Both the position numbers and the translations under genes were made by a program. From Pontibacter virosus (lineage in GTDB: Bacteria > Bacteroidota > Bacteroidia > Cytophagales > Hymenobacteraceae), in the NCBI RefSeq assembly GCF_003096355.1, contig NZ_QEKI01000001.1, positions 62,001 to 126,000 of the forward strand: a stretch of 64,000 nt of DNA, written 5' to 3'. Shown one piece after another: positions 17,673 through 27,206 of this stretch; positions within the stretch are counted from its first letter, which is position 1, and every line of letters begins with the position of its first letter. The notes under the pieces were generated by a model that was not told where the DNA came from, did not search any database, and worked only from the letters and a program-made list of their open reading frames with translations.

Positions 17673-18383
17673 CTACATATTATGATGTTTGGTAGGTATA
17701 CCGTGTTCATTCAGGAAAGCTGCCAGTTCCATTATTTCCTGCGACTGCTCTTCAATGATTAATCTGGCTTCTTCTAATGCCATTGCATCATCTCCCCACT
17801 TCAGCTCAGTTTCTGACATGGCTATCGCTCCCTGGTGGTGGCAGATCATGAGCTGGGCAAAGTCAACATCCGGATCAGGCGTATCCTTTACAGAACGCAT
17901 GCAGTGCATCATAGCCATCATGTCTTCCCGCATCTCCATCATAAACATCTTGCACTCTTCTTTTGAGAGCGGCTCTGCGCCCGGGTGTGAAGCTAAAAAA
18001 GCCTGCAATCTTTCTTTGCTTTCCATGTTGCCTATCTTCGTTTTCTCGGCCAACGCAAGCGCTTCCGGCTCATGCCCATATTGCAGTTCCAAGTCGGCCA
18101 TTTTAATTCCCATCTCGTGGTGCATGATCATCATGCTGGCAAAATCGATGTCGGGGTCGCAGGTCATCTCCATCTGGTTCATCATCTTCATCATGGAGTT
18201 GATGATATGCTGCATTTCCTTGTCAAAGGCTTTGTCATCTTCCCAGTAAGGACCCTTCGCAGCTTGCTCTGCAGTAGCACTTAATGGGGTTACAACATCC
18301 TGGTCCTTTTCGCAGCTACTGAACATAAAGACAGCAACTACCATAAGAGCAAAGCTCTTGATACTGATAAAACTAGTTTTCAT
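17673..18383 (-). CDS. DUF305 lipoprotein (intact copy of a duplicated gene)
   Basis: 236 residues. The leader ends in FMFSSC (C24), so it is a lipoprotein. Two DUF305 units follow: DIDFASMMIMHHEMGIKMADLEL and DVDFAQLMICHHQGAIAMSETEL, both with the HH and Met pattern of copper-binding DUF305 domains; linking helices are Met-rich (MFMMEMREDMMAMMHCM). A mature periplasmic or outer-membrane copper buffer is the likely role. A near-identical but frameshifted copy lies at 23412-24120. It is downstream of the four-helix copper protein gene (same strand, separated by a terminator), an order that is repeated in both copies. Confidence 0.88.
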   Translation of the reverse strand: MKTSFISIKSFALMVVAVFMFSSCEKDQDVVTPLSATAEQAAKGPYWEDDKAFDKEMQHIINSMMKMMNQMEMTCDPDIDFASMMIMHHEMGIKMADLELQYGHEPEALALAEKTKIGNMESKERLQAFLASHPGAEPLSKEECKMFMMEMREDMMAMMHCMRSVKDTPDPDVDFAQLMICHHQGAIAMSETELKWGDDAMALEEARLIIEEQSQEIMELAAFLNEHGIPTKHHNM

Positions 18384-18485
18384 ACATGATGGATTAAGTG
18401 GTTAAAAGTTGTGATCAGAAAAACAACTTACCTGCCTCTTTTTCTTACAGAAGCTTCTTTTTCTGCATTGTAATTGGGCTCAAGC

Positions 18486-18543
18486 AAAAACCACCCTGAC
18501 CGCTCTATCAGGTATAGAACAATCAGGGTGGTTCTTAGGTCTT
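18486..18543 (-). terminator. Rho-independent terminator after the four-helix copper protein gene
   Basis: An 11-bp stem, 18489-18499 with 18533-18543, followed on the minus strand by a run of five T (A run at 18486-18490 on the plus strand). The duplicated locus has the same hairpin at 24217-24264 with one base pair less, the change being matched on both arms, which supports a real structure. Confidence 0.88.
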
Positions 18544-18568
18544 GCATTGGGTCAGCACAGAGTAACAA

Positions 18569-18883
18569 CTACGCCTGCTGGCAAGCCTGCTCGCAACGGC
18601 GACAAGCCTCAGCGCACGTACGGCAGTGCTCCATGTGCGAATGCTTCTCACACTCTGCACCACATTCTCTACACACTCTGGCACACAGATCCAGCACTTC
18701 TCTGGAGAAGGTAGAATCCCGTGATACATAGTCCAGTGCCATTTTACAGATGGCTGCGCAATCCAAGTCAAGTCGGATGCAGCGTTCCATCATTTTCACA
18801 TCATCTTCCTGCAGGCAGGAAACTGCACAGTAGTTACAGGCTGCTGCACACTCAGCTAATGCGGTTATTAAGTCTTTATTCAT
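18569..18883 (-). CDS. Four-helix-bundle copper-storage protein (Csp-like)
   Basis: 104 residues with 16 cysteines placed along four helices: AECAAACNYCAVSC, RCIRLDLDCAAIC, LCARVCRECGAEC and HCRTCAEACRRCEQAC. This is the pattern of Csp proteins (PF03860-type), four-helix bundles whose core cysteines hold many Cu(I) ions. There is no signal peptide, so it should be the cytosolic (Csp3-like) kind, storing or buffering copper that escapes the ATPase. An almost identical paralogue lies at 24300-24614 and a decayed one near 14764. The gene is divergent from the ion-channel gene at 19124, the two being separated by the repeated 18905-19116 region. Confidence 0.93.
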   Translation of the reverse strand: MNKDLITALAECAAACNYCAVSCLQEDDVKMMERCIRLDLDCAAICKMALDYVSRDSTFSREVLDLCARVCRECGAECEKHSHMEHCRTCAEACRRCEQACQQA

Positions 18884-23411: not shown

Positions 23412-24120
23412 CTACATGTTATGGTGCTTGGTCGGTATACCGTGCTCATTTAAGAATGCGGCTAGCTCCATTATTTCCTGCGCTTGCTCTTCAATGATCA
23501 TTTCAGCCTCCTCCAAGGCCATTTCATCATCCCCCCACTTCAATTCTGTGTTTGACATGGCAAGGGCTCCTTCGTGATGACAGATCATCAGCTGGGCAAA
23601 ATCAACATCCGGATCAGGTGTGTCCATTACAGAACGCATGCAGTGCATCATAGCCATCATGTCCTCTCGCATCTCCATCATAAACATCTTGCACTCCTCC
23701 TTCGAGAGTGGTTCCGCCCCTGGATGCGATGCCAGCAATGCTTCAAGACGTACTTTACTTTCCATGTTGCCTATCTTCGTTTTCTCGGCCAGTTCCAGTG
23801 CCTCGGGCTCATGCCCATACTGGAGTTCCAGGTCGGCCATTTTAATACCCATTTCGTGGTGCATGATCATCATGTTGGCAAAATCAATGTCGGGGTCGCA
23901 GGTCATCTCCATCTGGTTCATCATCTTCATCATGGAGTTGATGATCTGCTGCATTTCCTTGTCAAATGCTTTGTCGCCCCCCAGTAAGGACCTTTCGTCG
24001 CTTTCTCTGCGCTGGTACTTAACGGGCTAACAACATCTTGGTCATTTTCGCAGCTGCTGAACACAAAGACGGCAATTAGCATAAGAGCAAAGCTTCTGAT
24101 ACTGATAAAATTTTTTTCAT
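23412..24120 (-). pseudogene. Frameshifted duplicate of the DUF305 lipoprotein gene
   Basis: Compared with the intact copy at 17673-18383, this copy matches from the signal sequence (FALMLIAVFVFSSCENDQD) to the identical C-terminus (FLNEHGIPTKHHNM). Two single-base losses break it: one in an A run right after the start codon (ATG at 24118-24120 followed by seven A; eight are needed to keep frame), and one in a run of six G on the coding strand (plus-strand C run 23977-23982; seven would restore frame). The last 180 residues remain open from an internal ATG at 23954. Both lesions are in homopolymers, so slippage, phase variation or sequencing error must all be considered. Confidence 0.85.
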
Positions 24121-24216
24121 AGATTATGTGGTTAAAAAATGTGACCAAAATTCACTTACTAAGCCTCTTAATTTTATGGGGACTTCTATCGGTGCACTGT
24201 AATTCACGTCCACGCC

Positions 24217-24264
24217 AAAAAACACCCTGACCGCTCTAGCAGGTATAGAACAATCAGGGTGTTT
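24217..24264 (-). terminator. Rho-independent terminator after the second copper-storage gene
   Basis: Stem 24221-24230 with 24254-24263, followed on the minus strand by six T (A run 24217-24222). It corresponds to the hairpin at 18486-18543; the lost base pair is missing from both arms, as expected of a selected structure. Confidence 0.88.
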
Positions 24265-24299
24265 CTTAGGTCTTGCATTTGACCAACTTGTAATAACAA

Positions 24300-24614
24300 C
24301 TACGCCTGCTGGCAAGCCTGCTCGCAACGACGGCAAGCCTCAGCGCACATACGGCAGTGCTCCATGTGCGAATGCTTTTCACATTCCGCACCGCACTCGC
24401 GACACACTCTGGCGCACAGGTCCAGCACGTCTCGCTTCATAGTCGAATCACGGGATACATAATCCAGCGCCATTTTACAGATAGCGGCACAGTCCAGATC
24501 GAGGCGGATACAGCGCTCCATCATTTTCACATCGTCTTCCTGCAGACAGGAGACAGCACAGTAGTTACAGGCTGCGGCACATTCTGCCAACACTGAAACT
24601 AGTTCTCTATTCAT
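24300..24614 (-). CDS. Four-helix-bundle copper-storage protein (Csp-like), second copy
   Basis: 104 residues from the ATG at 24614 (an ATG four codons upstream, 24626, is also possible). The sequence differs from the copy at 18569 at about ten positions, mostly near the N-terminus and in the turn DSTMKRDV, while all 16 cysteines are kept. The role is the same: cytosolic Cu(I) binding by core cysteines of a four-helix bundle. Conservation of every cysteine, while the adjacent DUF305 copy has decayed, suggests this copy is still under selection. It is followed by a matching terminator and then by the broken DUF305 gene. Confidence 0.92.
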   Translation of the reverse strand: MNRELVSVLAECAAACNYCAVSCLQEDDVKMMERCIRLDLDCAAICKMALDYVSRDSTMKRDVLDLCARVCRECGAECEKHSHMEHCRMCAEACRRCEQACQQA

Positions 24615-24651
24615 CGTTATGTTCATAGTTTGTTTTGTTTGGTTATAAGTC

Positions 24652-25432: not shown

Positions 25433-26740
25433 TCACTCGCTAATCATATTAAATGCTGTTAACCGTGCAGCGTACTGCTTCTTCACGTCGTTTTCAAAGC
25501 TATCCAAGTAGCTTTCGGTCGTCTTCAGGTTAGAGTGCCCAAGGGATTCAGATATAAGCTCTATCGGTGCCCCTGCTCGCTTGAGGACTGTAGAGAAGGA
25601 ATGCCGGGCCGTGTACGTGCTTATATTCTTTTCAATGCCAACCGCGGAGGCAACACGCTTGATGTACTTGTTTATAGTCTTGGTGGCATGCTGAATCTTT
25701 GCCCGTTCTCTTTCCGCAGACAACCCTGGTTCAAGCAAGGGGAACACATAATCTTCACTGTAAGCGGGTTTATTACCCCATCTCTCGATGATCTCATCAA
25801 TTTCCTGCGTCCGCATGGCCGTAATGACCTTGATATTCTGGCGGCTGGTCCGCTCCGTCTTGGCCCTGACAAAGGTGATCCTCTCCTGGTCAAGCTGCTT
25901 GTACTTCAGACGGGCGATGTCCTTCACGTTTATCCCGTTGCACAGGTAGGAGAAGATCCACAGGTCCCGCGCACGCCCTTCGTTCTCGGTGGCAGGCTTA
26001 TAGGAGAATATCTTTTCAATGTCTGCCAGCGTCAGGGCTTTCTTCACATTCCGGCCGGAGGGTATCTGGTACTTTCTCTTGCCGAACGGGTAGAGGTCGG
26101 CGTTCACCTCCCCTGCCGCGATGGCGTTGTTGTAGATGGCGCGAAGCGCCCGCAGGTAGATGCCTATGGTGGTGATCGAGTGGCCGTGCTGAAGCATCCA
26201 TTTCTCGTACCCCATCAGGAAATCAACAGTTATAGCGGCATAAGCCAGAGGCTTGCGTTTCTTCAGCAGGTTTTCCCTCTTCTCGGTTGCTTTAGCTCTA
26301 GATAAGCCCTTATTTCTGGTAAGGGGTTCTTTCTGAATAAAGGATAGCAAGGAGAGGCTGGCGCTCTCGTAGCTGCTGGCCGTGCCTACCCTGCCTTCCT
26401 CAACCAGTCTTGTGACTTGCTGCTCAAATGCTGTAAAGACATCGTTCTTAACTGCAGTGTTCAGGTACTTCTTCTCGAACTGCTCAAAAGTGAAGGTTTC
26501 AAGGTTACGGATGATGCCTATAGCCTTCTGCTCTATTGCCTGAAAAGCTATCTGAAGCTCTTTGTACTTTCCTTTCGGCTTTTCCGCTTGAACCTTAAAG
26601 AATTCTGCCTCGCTCAAAGAGTAGCTCGTATTATAGTATTTGCGCTGTCTTTGGAAGGTGAGCCTCAACCTTACCGGGAATGAGCCATCTTTCAGAGCCC
26701 TTCTGGTATCCAGCATGACGGAAGTAAGTACGGGTATCAT
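25433..26740 (-). CDS. Tyrosine recombinase / integrase of the island
   Basis: 435 residues from the ATG at 26740 (VLTSVMLDTRRALKDGSFPV is the usual start of Bacteroidota integrases; a longer frame from 26779 overlaps an inverted repeat). It has an N-terminal arm-binding domain, a SAM-like core-binding domain at about 95-220, and a C-terminal catalytic domain with KTERTSR (Lys), ARHSFSTVL (Arg), SLGHSNLKTTESYLDSF (His and the nucleophile Tyr). The first catalytic Arg region reads CNGINVKDIARLKY, as in integrases of conjugative elements that lack the standard Arg there. Its 5' end lies 154 bases from a tRNA-Arg fragment, so it most likely inserted this island. Confidence 0.9.
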   Translation of the reverse strand: MIPVLTSVMLDTRRALKDGSFPVRLRLTFQRQRKYYNTSYSLSEAEFFKVQAEKPKGKYKELQIAFQAIEQKAIGIIRNLETFTFEQFEKKYLNTAVKNDVFTAFEQQVTRLVEEGRVGTASSYESASLSLLSFIQKEPLTRNKGLSRAKATEKRENLLKKRKPLAYAAITVDFLMGYEKWMLQHGHSITTIGIYLRALRAIYNNAIAAGEVNADLYPFGKRKYQIPSGRNVKKALTLADIEKIFSYKPATENEGRARDLWIFSYLCNGINVKDIARLKYKQLDQERITFVRAKTERTSRQNIKVITAMRTQEIDEIIERWGNKPAYSEDYVFPLLEPGLSAERERAKIQHATKTINKYIKRVASAVGIEKNISTYTARHSFSTVLKRAGAPIELISESLGHSNLKTTESYLDSFENDVKKQYAARLTAFNMISE

Positions 26741-26741
26741 G

Positions 26742-26780
26742 TGTGTGCAAATTATTTCCTGTACACACAATTTGCACACA
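26742..26780. promoter_or_regulatory. Inverted repeat just upstream of the integrase start
   Basis: A perfect 12-bp inverted repeat: TGTGTGCAAATT at 26742-26753 and AATTTGCACACA at 26769-26780, 15 bases between. Its position immediately before the ATG at 26740 suggests an operator or a recombinase/accessory-factor site. The related string ACAATTTGCA occurs at 26767-26776 and again at 26992-27001, on the other side of the tRNA fragment. Confidence 0.6.
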
Positions 26781-26893
26781 AACCGTCAAAAAGTCAAGTA
26801 ATATTACTAAACAAGGAGAAACAAAAATTGCTTAATTTGGCTAAAAAGACGGTTTTTACTAATATATAATACTAGCAATAAAGGCTATCGTCA

Positions 26894-26938
26894 TGACTAC
26901 GAATCAGAAGGTTAGGGGTTCGACTCCCTTCGCGACCA
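26894..26938 (+). other. 3' half of a tRNA-Arg gene: attachment-site footprint of the island
   Basis: These 45 bases hold an anticodon loop CTACGAA (anticodon ACG, Arg), its 3' stem, a variable region, the T arm with loop TTCGACT, and the acceptor 3' strand CGCGACC plus the discriminator A. There is no matching 5' half upstream: no D arm and no GGTCGCG partner strand is seen in 26780-26893. A partial tRNA beside an integrase gene is the standard result of insertion at a tRNA 3' end, with the complete tRNA at the other island border, which would be left of this window. It is not a functional tRNA here. Confidence 0.85.
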
Positions 26939-26942
26939 CTTA

Positions 26943-26983
26943 AAAAAAGCCACTTACGAGTAAAATCGTAAAGTGGCTTTTTT
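26943..26983 (+). terminator. Terminator behind the tRNA-Arg fragment
   Basis: Stem 26943-26959 with 26966-26983 (one bulged A), ending in six T. It sits 5 bases after the tRNA fragment, so it was probably the terminator of the original tRNA-Arg gene. Confidence 0.88.
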
Positions 26984-27206
26984 GTTTGCATACAATTTGC
27001 ATTTTTTAGCCGCTTCTTCATTCAAGGAAATACCGCCTTTGCGTGTCTTTAGTCTGGCCTGATACTCACCTTAATGTCTTTTCGAAGTTCAACCTGGCTG
27101 TAAAACAATAGAGTGGTTTTTGCTTTGCAGTATTAATAGCCAAGTCGCTTTGTATTAATATCTGTTTAAGAATTGTCAAATCAATGATGTTGGTATGAGG
27201 AGTTTG

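Follow-up and report, generated by a model that had tools for sequence, protein, structure and literature searches.

A displaced tRNA-Arg(ACG) 3' half in Pontibacter virosus as the probable joint between a metal-resistance island and older imported DNA

Islands in tRNA genes are mapped by Islander from an intact tRNA gene together with its displaced fragment (PMC4383910), and that paper counts 125 tandems of two or more among 3919 islands. NBU1-type integrative and mobilizable elements of Bacteroidetes are treated in a review (PMC5704250); the terms accretion and cis-mobilizable elements occur there and in PMC7563491. Tandem tRNA islands and tRNA-targeted mobilizable elements are already known, and an island of Pontibacter virosus, here called A, would join them by sequence criteria. 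The interesting parts of the locus are an apparently relocated block of glycan-use genes, here called B, and the cassettes at the island ends. Searches on Pontibacter islands and tRNA genes, on integrative or mobilizable elements, and on glycan-locus transfer at tRNA sites gave no published account of these Pontibacter islands.

Like the islands described in PMC4383910, A has a tyrosine integrase and a 3' fragment downstream of an intact tRNA gene in the same orientation. Unlike the tandems described there, the second member of the present array has a left end alone, so that a fragment-based rule would set the chromosome edge 100 kb too early. With NBU1, as portrayed in PMC5704250, A shares a tyrosine integrase, a relaxase and a target at the 3' end of a tRNA gene, and no conjugation ATPase of its own was found in A. 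It differs from NBU1 in its target, which is tRNA-Arg(ACG) and not tRNA-Leu, in its size (about 116 kb) and in its large metal and defence cargo.

The window is a 64-kb stretch of DNA, positions 62,001-126,000 of contig C1 (NZ_QEKI01000001.1) in the draft assembly of P. virosus (G000; 42 contigs, 4,884,877 bases). The 3' half of a tRNA-Arg without its 5' half is found at 26,894-26,938 of the window, as the first-pass annotation had read it, and no complete tRNA-Arg gene overlies it, since ARAGORN detected zero tRNAs in the whole window. When up to 3 mismatches are allowed, the 45-mer of the fragment has exactly two sites in the genome, C1:88,894 (in the window) and C4:409,575, both with 0 mismatches; the reversed control pattern gave 0 matches across the 4,884,877 bases. 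The second perfect copy, in direct orientation, closes the intact tRNA-Arg(ACG) gene found at C4:409,546-409,620. The annotation had predicted such a gene with an identical 3' half at the other island end, and this was borne out; the gene lies on C4, however, and not to the left on C1 where the 45-base match was to be sought. Read by eye from both copies, the exact direct repeat is 48 bp long and covers 26,894-26,941 (forward strand) in the window. It is very probable that this fragment is attR of island A and that the locus is a tandem accretion of at least two imports, A and then an older remnant with B. C4 runs another 27.4 kb past the intact tRNA gene to the contig end, an orientation that fits an island which begins at the tRNA, crosses from C4 to the beginning of C1 and reaches as far as the fragment.

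The tyrosine integrase of A is encoded on the reverse strand at 25,433-26,740. Its reading frame is open over 25,433-26,779 from a GTG, with the first ATG at about 26,740; with that ATG the gap of 154 bases to the fragment given in the annotation is obtained. The protein has Phage_integrase, SAM-like and Arm-DNA-binding domains in Pfam (PF00589, PF13102, PF17293). Its identity to the integrases of Pontibacter sp. FD36 and P. amylolyticus is 100%, and to those in other Pontibacter records 89-92%. A probable integrase arm site, ACACAATTTGCACACA, lies at 26,765-26,780 on the forward strand and is an exact copy of the site at C4:409,673-409,688, which stands behind the intact tRNA-Arg(ACG). A probable inverted copy with 2 mismatches to ACACAATTTGCACACA is found at 26,742-26,757 on the reverse strand, and this inverted site is retained in 5 of the 10 related ends compared. 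The arm sites are presumed to be bound by the integrase.

The right-hand part of A, with metal and redox cargo, occupies positions 1-26,893 of the window, as indicated by Pfam matches and by collinearity with an island of FD36. From there A would extend left through C1:1 into C4:409,621-436,991, a length of 27,371 + 88,893 = 116,264 bases to which the contig gap must be added. For the stretch between C4:409,879 and C1:88,779, the encoded proteins have counterparts in the FD36 island whose order is largely conserved, and many are 100% identical; C1:36.7-49 kb, among other parts of A, is without an FD36 match. In FD36 the island lies on a single contig, with the intact tRNA at C11:185,434 and the fragment at C11:79,153, about 106 kb apart, and the native flank stands directly at the fragment. 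This collinearity points to the adjacency of C4 and C1, but between the closest gene pairs on either side of the break about 10 kb in FD36 and 18.6 kb in G000 have no partner. G000, FD36 and P. amylolyticus share the same 220 bases in front of the fragment, and the sequence after it differs in all three. Since the same island end meets different DNA in three species, the fragment is the exact end of A. Relatives that lack the island, a comparison the annotation had proposed, are also available: in G015 the tRNA runs directly into the native terminator and flank, and in G004, G006 and G008 the native terminator and flank follow with short inserts.

At least 116 kb long, A is a candidate mobilizable island. 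It encodes a MobA/VirD2-type relaxase (PF03432, E 7.9e-35, C1:20,386-21,333) and a Toprim/CHC2 primase. The Bacteroidetes conjugation ATPase TraG (TIGR03783) is found in G000 only on C6 and C17, and no conjugation families were detected among the A proteins scanned, a subset of those encoded on the C1 and C4 parts. With a relaxase in A and TraG only on C6 and C17, A is best described as a candidate integrative and mobilizable element, one that presumably moves with help from a conjugation system encoded elsewhere. Metal, redox and defence cargo with duplications had been reported to the left of the integrase, and the copper oxidase, P-type ATPase, RND efflux parts, MATE, Mn-catalase and duplicated genes seen there agree with this. 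Over the whole of A, the metal cargo includes RND metal efflux, P-type ATPases, multicopper oxidase and Mn-catalase; candidate defence genes include ThiF and JAB proteins, MmeI, SIR2, AbiEii and Schlafen. A DUF305 gene and a small neighbour form a pair that is duplicated within A (window 17,673-18,883 and 23,412-24,626). At C1:12,475-16,853 genes for ThiF-family and JAB proteins are lined up with genes for DUF1508 and a YhcG nuclease; all of them have 100% identical counterparts in FD36, and the row is a possible defence cassette. Near the left end of A (C4:412,372-432,881) are two very long DUF6443 proteins of 2181 and 2060 amino acids, the second with RHS repeats and a C-terminal Ntox44 domain.

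What follows the fragment is an island-type left end. A terminator hairpin at 26,949-26,977 with its T run (26,949-26,983, forward strand) appears to be the left end of a second, older island, and behind it lies a decayed arm site of the CATA class at 26,989-27,002 (forward strand). A tRNA-type terminator had been noted here in the annotation; a terminator is indeed present, but its type is island-borne, not chromosomal. In FD36 and others, by contrast, the native terminator stands behind the fragment. A first search covered 24 genomes of the same genus, and the tRNA-Arg(ACG) locus was obtained in 23 (not in G007). In 12 of these 23, an island-type end follows the tRNA, namely the hairpin GCCACTTAC...GTGGC, a T run and a site like CACACAATTTGCACACA. 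Other sequence follows it in the remaining 11, most of which have the native terminator; one of them, G024, has a different hairpin but an arm-like site. A conserved series of genes, PurD and RecQ among them, lies past the native terminator, either immediately or with short inserts in between. A later search of 50 genomes matched the fragment plus island end in at least 24, G000 included. In 13 distinct versions of the hairpin (20 rows) all 10 pairs hold, and two pairs are changed on both sides, changes that may be one event because the sequences belong to one family; judged from this pairing, the hairpin looks selected.

Arm sites can be sorted into classes. Both ends were fetched for 13 islands (G000, G002, G005, which is FD36, G009, G012, G016, G020, G021, G022, G041, G044, G045 and G050), and in 13 of 13 the class behind the tRNA is the class beside the integrase: CACA in 7, CATA in 5 and CATACG in 1, with single-base departures in G012, G020 and G050. 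The probability of this under random pairing is 7!5!1!/13!, about 1e-4 by hand arithmetic, and is only a guide because the islands are related. With this pairing, island ends on separate contigs can be matched from sequence alone; in G009 and G016, for example, the two ends are on different contigs. In the window the arm site behind the fragment is of a decayed CATA type, whereas the resident integrase goes with the CACA class. Four of the 13 (G000, G020, G041 and G045) have an island-island joint that carries the same hairpin, and the distal arm site is decayed in all 4. Another hairpin with an arm-like site stands behind the fragment in G002. Comparison across the genus suggests a rule, by which a native terminator after the fragment marks the chromosome edge and an island-borne terminator with an arm site marks an island-island joint.

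Glycan-use genes do lie to the right of the fragment, as the annotation had it (GH95, sulfatase, GH2, GH109, GH20 and GH92 are present). They form block B, of which the first 37 kb of 100 kb fall in the window (27,207-64,000); the block continues to C1:189,001, so that B is C1:89,207-189,001, with a GH95 gene and a GntR/FCD regulator at its edges. The native flank (a 118-aa gene, PurD, RecQ and onward) starts in the same orientation only at C1:189,068, 100 kb to the right of the fragment and about 63 kb outside the window. The entire 64-kb window therefore lies between the tRNA and its native neighbour, inside an occupied hotspot. In relatives with both on one contig, the interval from tRNA to flank is 0 to about 106 kb. 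An island-type left end precedes B, whose right edge is without an attachment site, and B is thus not a complete island. No third tRNA fragment or native terminator was found at that edge (about 189 kb), and C1 holds no other integrase related to that of A, so neither an integrase of its own nor a far-end fragment accompanies B.

The likely course of events is as follows. An older island at tRNA-Arg(ACG) would have decayed first, and A would have integrated later at the same 3' end, pushing the remnant to the right. In that second event the tyrosine integrase of A would have mediated recombination between the chromosomal gene and a copy of the tRNA-Arg(ACG) 3' half carried by the island. The tRNA would thereby have been rebuilt at the left end (C4) with the island-borne terminator behind it, and the older 3' half would have been shifted rightward to its place next to the integrase gene. 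Beyond the displaced half would then stand the left-end remnant (terminator and decayed arm site), B, and the native PurD/RecQ neighbourhood. With the remnant and B between the displaced 3' half and PurD/RecQ, the locus reads as tandem accretion at a tRNA-Arg(ACG) hotspot used across the genus. Accretion describes the stacking, at one tRNA end, of elements with a related attachment type. A cis-mobilizable element has attachment sites on both sides, unlike B, which has a left end only. An older island followed by A is the best supported order, and for B, arrival as cargo of the older island and separate arrival carry about equal weight.

B is collinear with G015 C3:159,158-244,154 (44 reciprocal best matches among 56 ORFs, median 85.0%) and with G021 C1:2,670,805-2,779,645 (43 of 56 ORFs, median 80.8%), and in none of the relatives compared does it stand at tRNA-Arg(ACG). 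Its regulator edge is 0.4 kb from tRNA-Arg(UCU) in G015, 5 kb in G014 and 14 kb in G021. Of the 11 relatives examined, 3 thus have B in this neighbourhood, since no tRNA-Arg(UCU) occurs around the regulator edge in the stretches fetched from the other eight (G012, G013, G019, G024, G044, G050, G052 and G060). The tRNA-Arg(UCU) of G000 itself is on C14, without B in the 19.5 kb between the tRNA and the contig end. Over 32 gene trios, the identity of B is 83.0% for G000-G015, 82.1% for G000-G021 and 81.5% for G015-G021, counting reciprocal matches with >45% identity and >70% coverage; for the flanking core genes, which come from one locus, the medians in the same order are 96.4% (10 genes), 80.3% (10) and 80.2% (9). 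With B identity so far below core identity, G000 and G015 did not inherit B jointly from a recent ancestor, and divergence far above that of core genes between such close relatives indicates that B was acquired separately.

B may have reached the decayed ACG locus through recombination with transferred DNA, whether homologous or illegitimate, or through relocation within the chromosome, and a probability a little short of even is given to this. The edges of B, which lie just past the stop codons of its outer genes and are without repeats or att sites, fit such an entry, as does the GH95-side flank, which differs among species except between G014 and G021; the donor molecule or recombination track that it calls for was, however, not found. 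The GH95-side flank of G015 was considered as the ancestral neighbour of B and set aside; it is on C2 in G000 and does not stand beside B in the other matched genomes. A simple inversion between the two tRNA-Arg loci is rejected because the left-end remnant and the native flank are still on either side of B.

Only slightly less probable is that B was cargo of the older island, which entered site-specifically at tRNA-Arg(ACG) and later lost its integrase end. The remnant lies within about 200 bp of B, and an ACG-site island of about 47 kb in G044 (C15:135,889-183,360) carries a GH95 gene 79% identical to that of B, both of which favour this origin; the right edge without integrase or fragment speaks against it, as does the opposite direction of B relative to tRNA-Arg(UCU) in G015, G014 and G021. 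The G044 island also carries an RND metal-efflux protein 81% identical to that of A.

More doubtful is the idea that the block of about 100 kb might itself be mobile, carried almost intact by tRNA-site islands from one tRNA-Arg neighbourhood to another. It is suggested by the position of B, which is next to tRNA-Arg(UCU) in three species but downstream of tRNA-Arg(ACG) here, by its conserved edges, and by divergence that does not follow the core. In G019, G024 and G050 the GntR regulator is followed within 0.4-0.7 kb by the GH2 gene that is near the other edge in G000, a juxtaposition that a joined-ends form of B would give. If true, non-gut Bacteroidota would provide a large example of mobile glycan metabolism, a carbohydrate-use block of 100 kb whose tRNA neighbourhood changes between species.

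That the fragment at 26,894-26,938 is the boundary of foreign and resident DNA, with the glycan region resident at its ancestral place, as the first-pass annotation proposed, is very improbable. The block is common to a minority of the genus as a collinear unit and its GC (0.521) is near that of the core (0.507-0.509), which would suit residence; but an island left end stands directly behind the fragment, B is found at other places in relatives with divergence out of step with the core, and the native flank of tRNA-Arg(ACG) 100 kb further right on the same contig contradicts the proposal. Base composition as a test of island origin is not decisive (A has a GC of 0.493 in its C1 part and 0.532 in its C4 part, beside the values for B and core). 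A single tRNA fragment as criterion would have labelled 100 kb of probably imported glycan genes as resident. Sequencing reads are usually longer than 48 bp, and misassembly of C1 as a chimera joined at the repeat or at 189 kb, which a 42-contig draft with an exact 48-bp repeat invites, is just as improbable given a repeat below read length, different sequence after its two copies, and the same kind of island-island joint in G020, G041 and G045.

Ends of this kind are found at other tRNA genes as well. Behind tRNA-Arg(UCU), a hairpin of this type and an arm-like site are present in G000, G015, G018, G019, G020 and G021, and weaker matches have been seen at tRNA-Met and tRNA-Asn in other genomes. 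A single island family may use many tRNA genes, with terminators tailored to them. G000 has a second island of the same build at an intact tRNA-Ala(GGC) (C2:463,422-484,599). There the tRNA has an island-type hairpin with a CATACGATTTGCATACA site behind it, and at a distance of 21 kb stands a tRNA-Ala 3' half, equal in 46 of 47 bases, beside an integrase 40% identical to that of the window. Shorter tRNA fragments, from base 32 of the 45-base 3' half and followed by a native-type terminator, occur at G011 C2:378,219 and G012 C3:344,800, and hint at a second island class with a crossover nearer the acceptor end.
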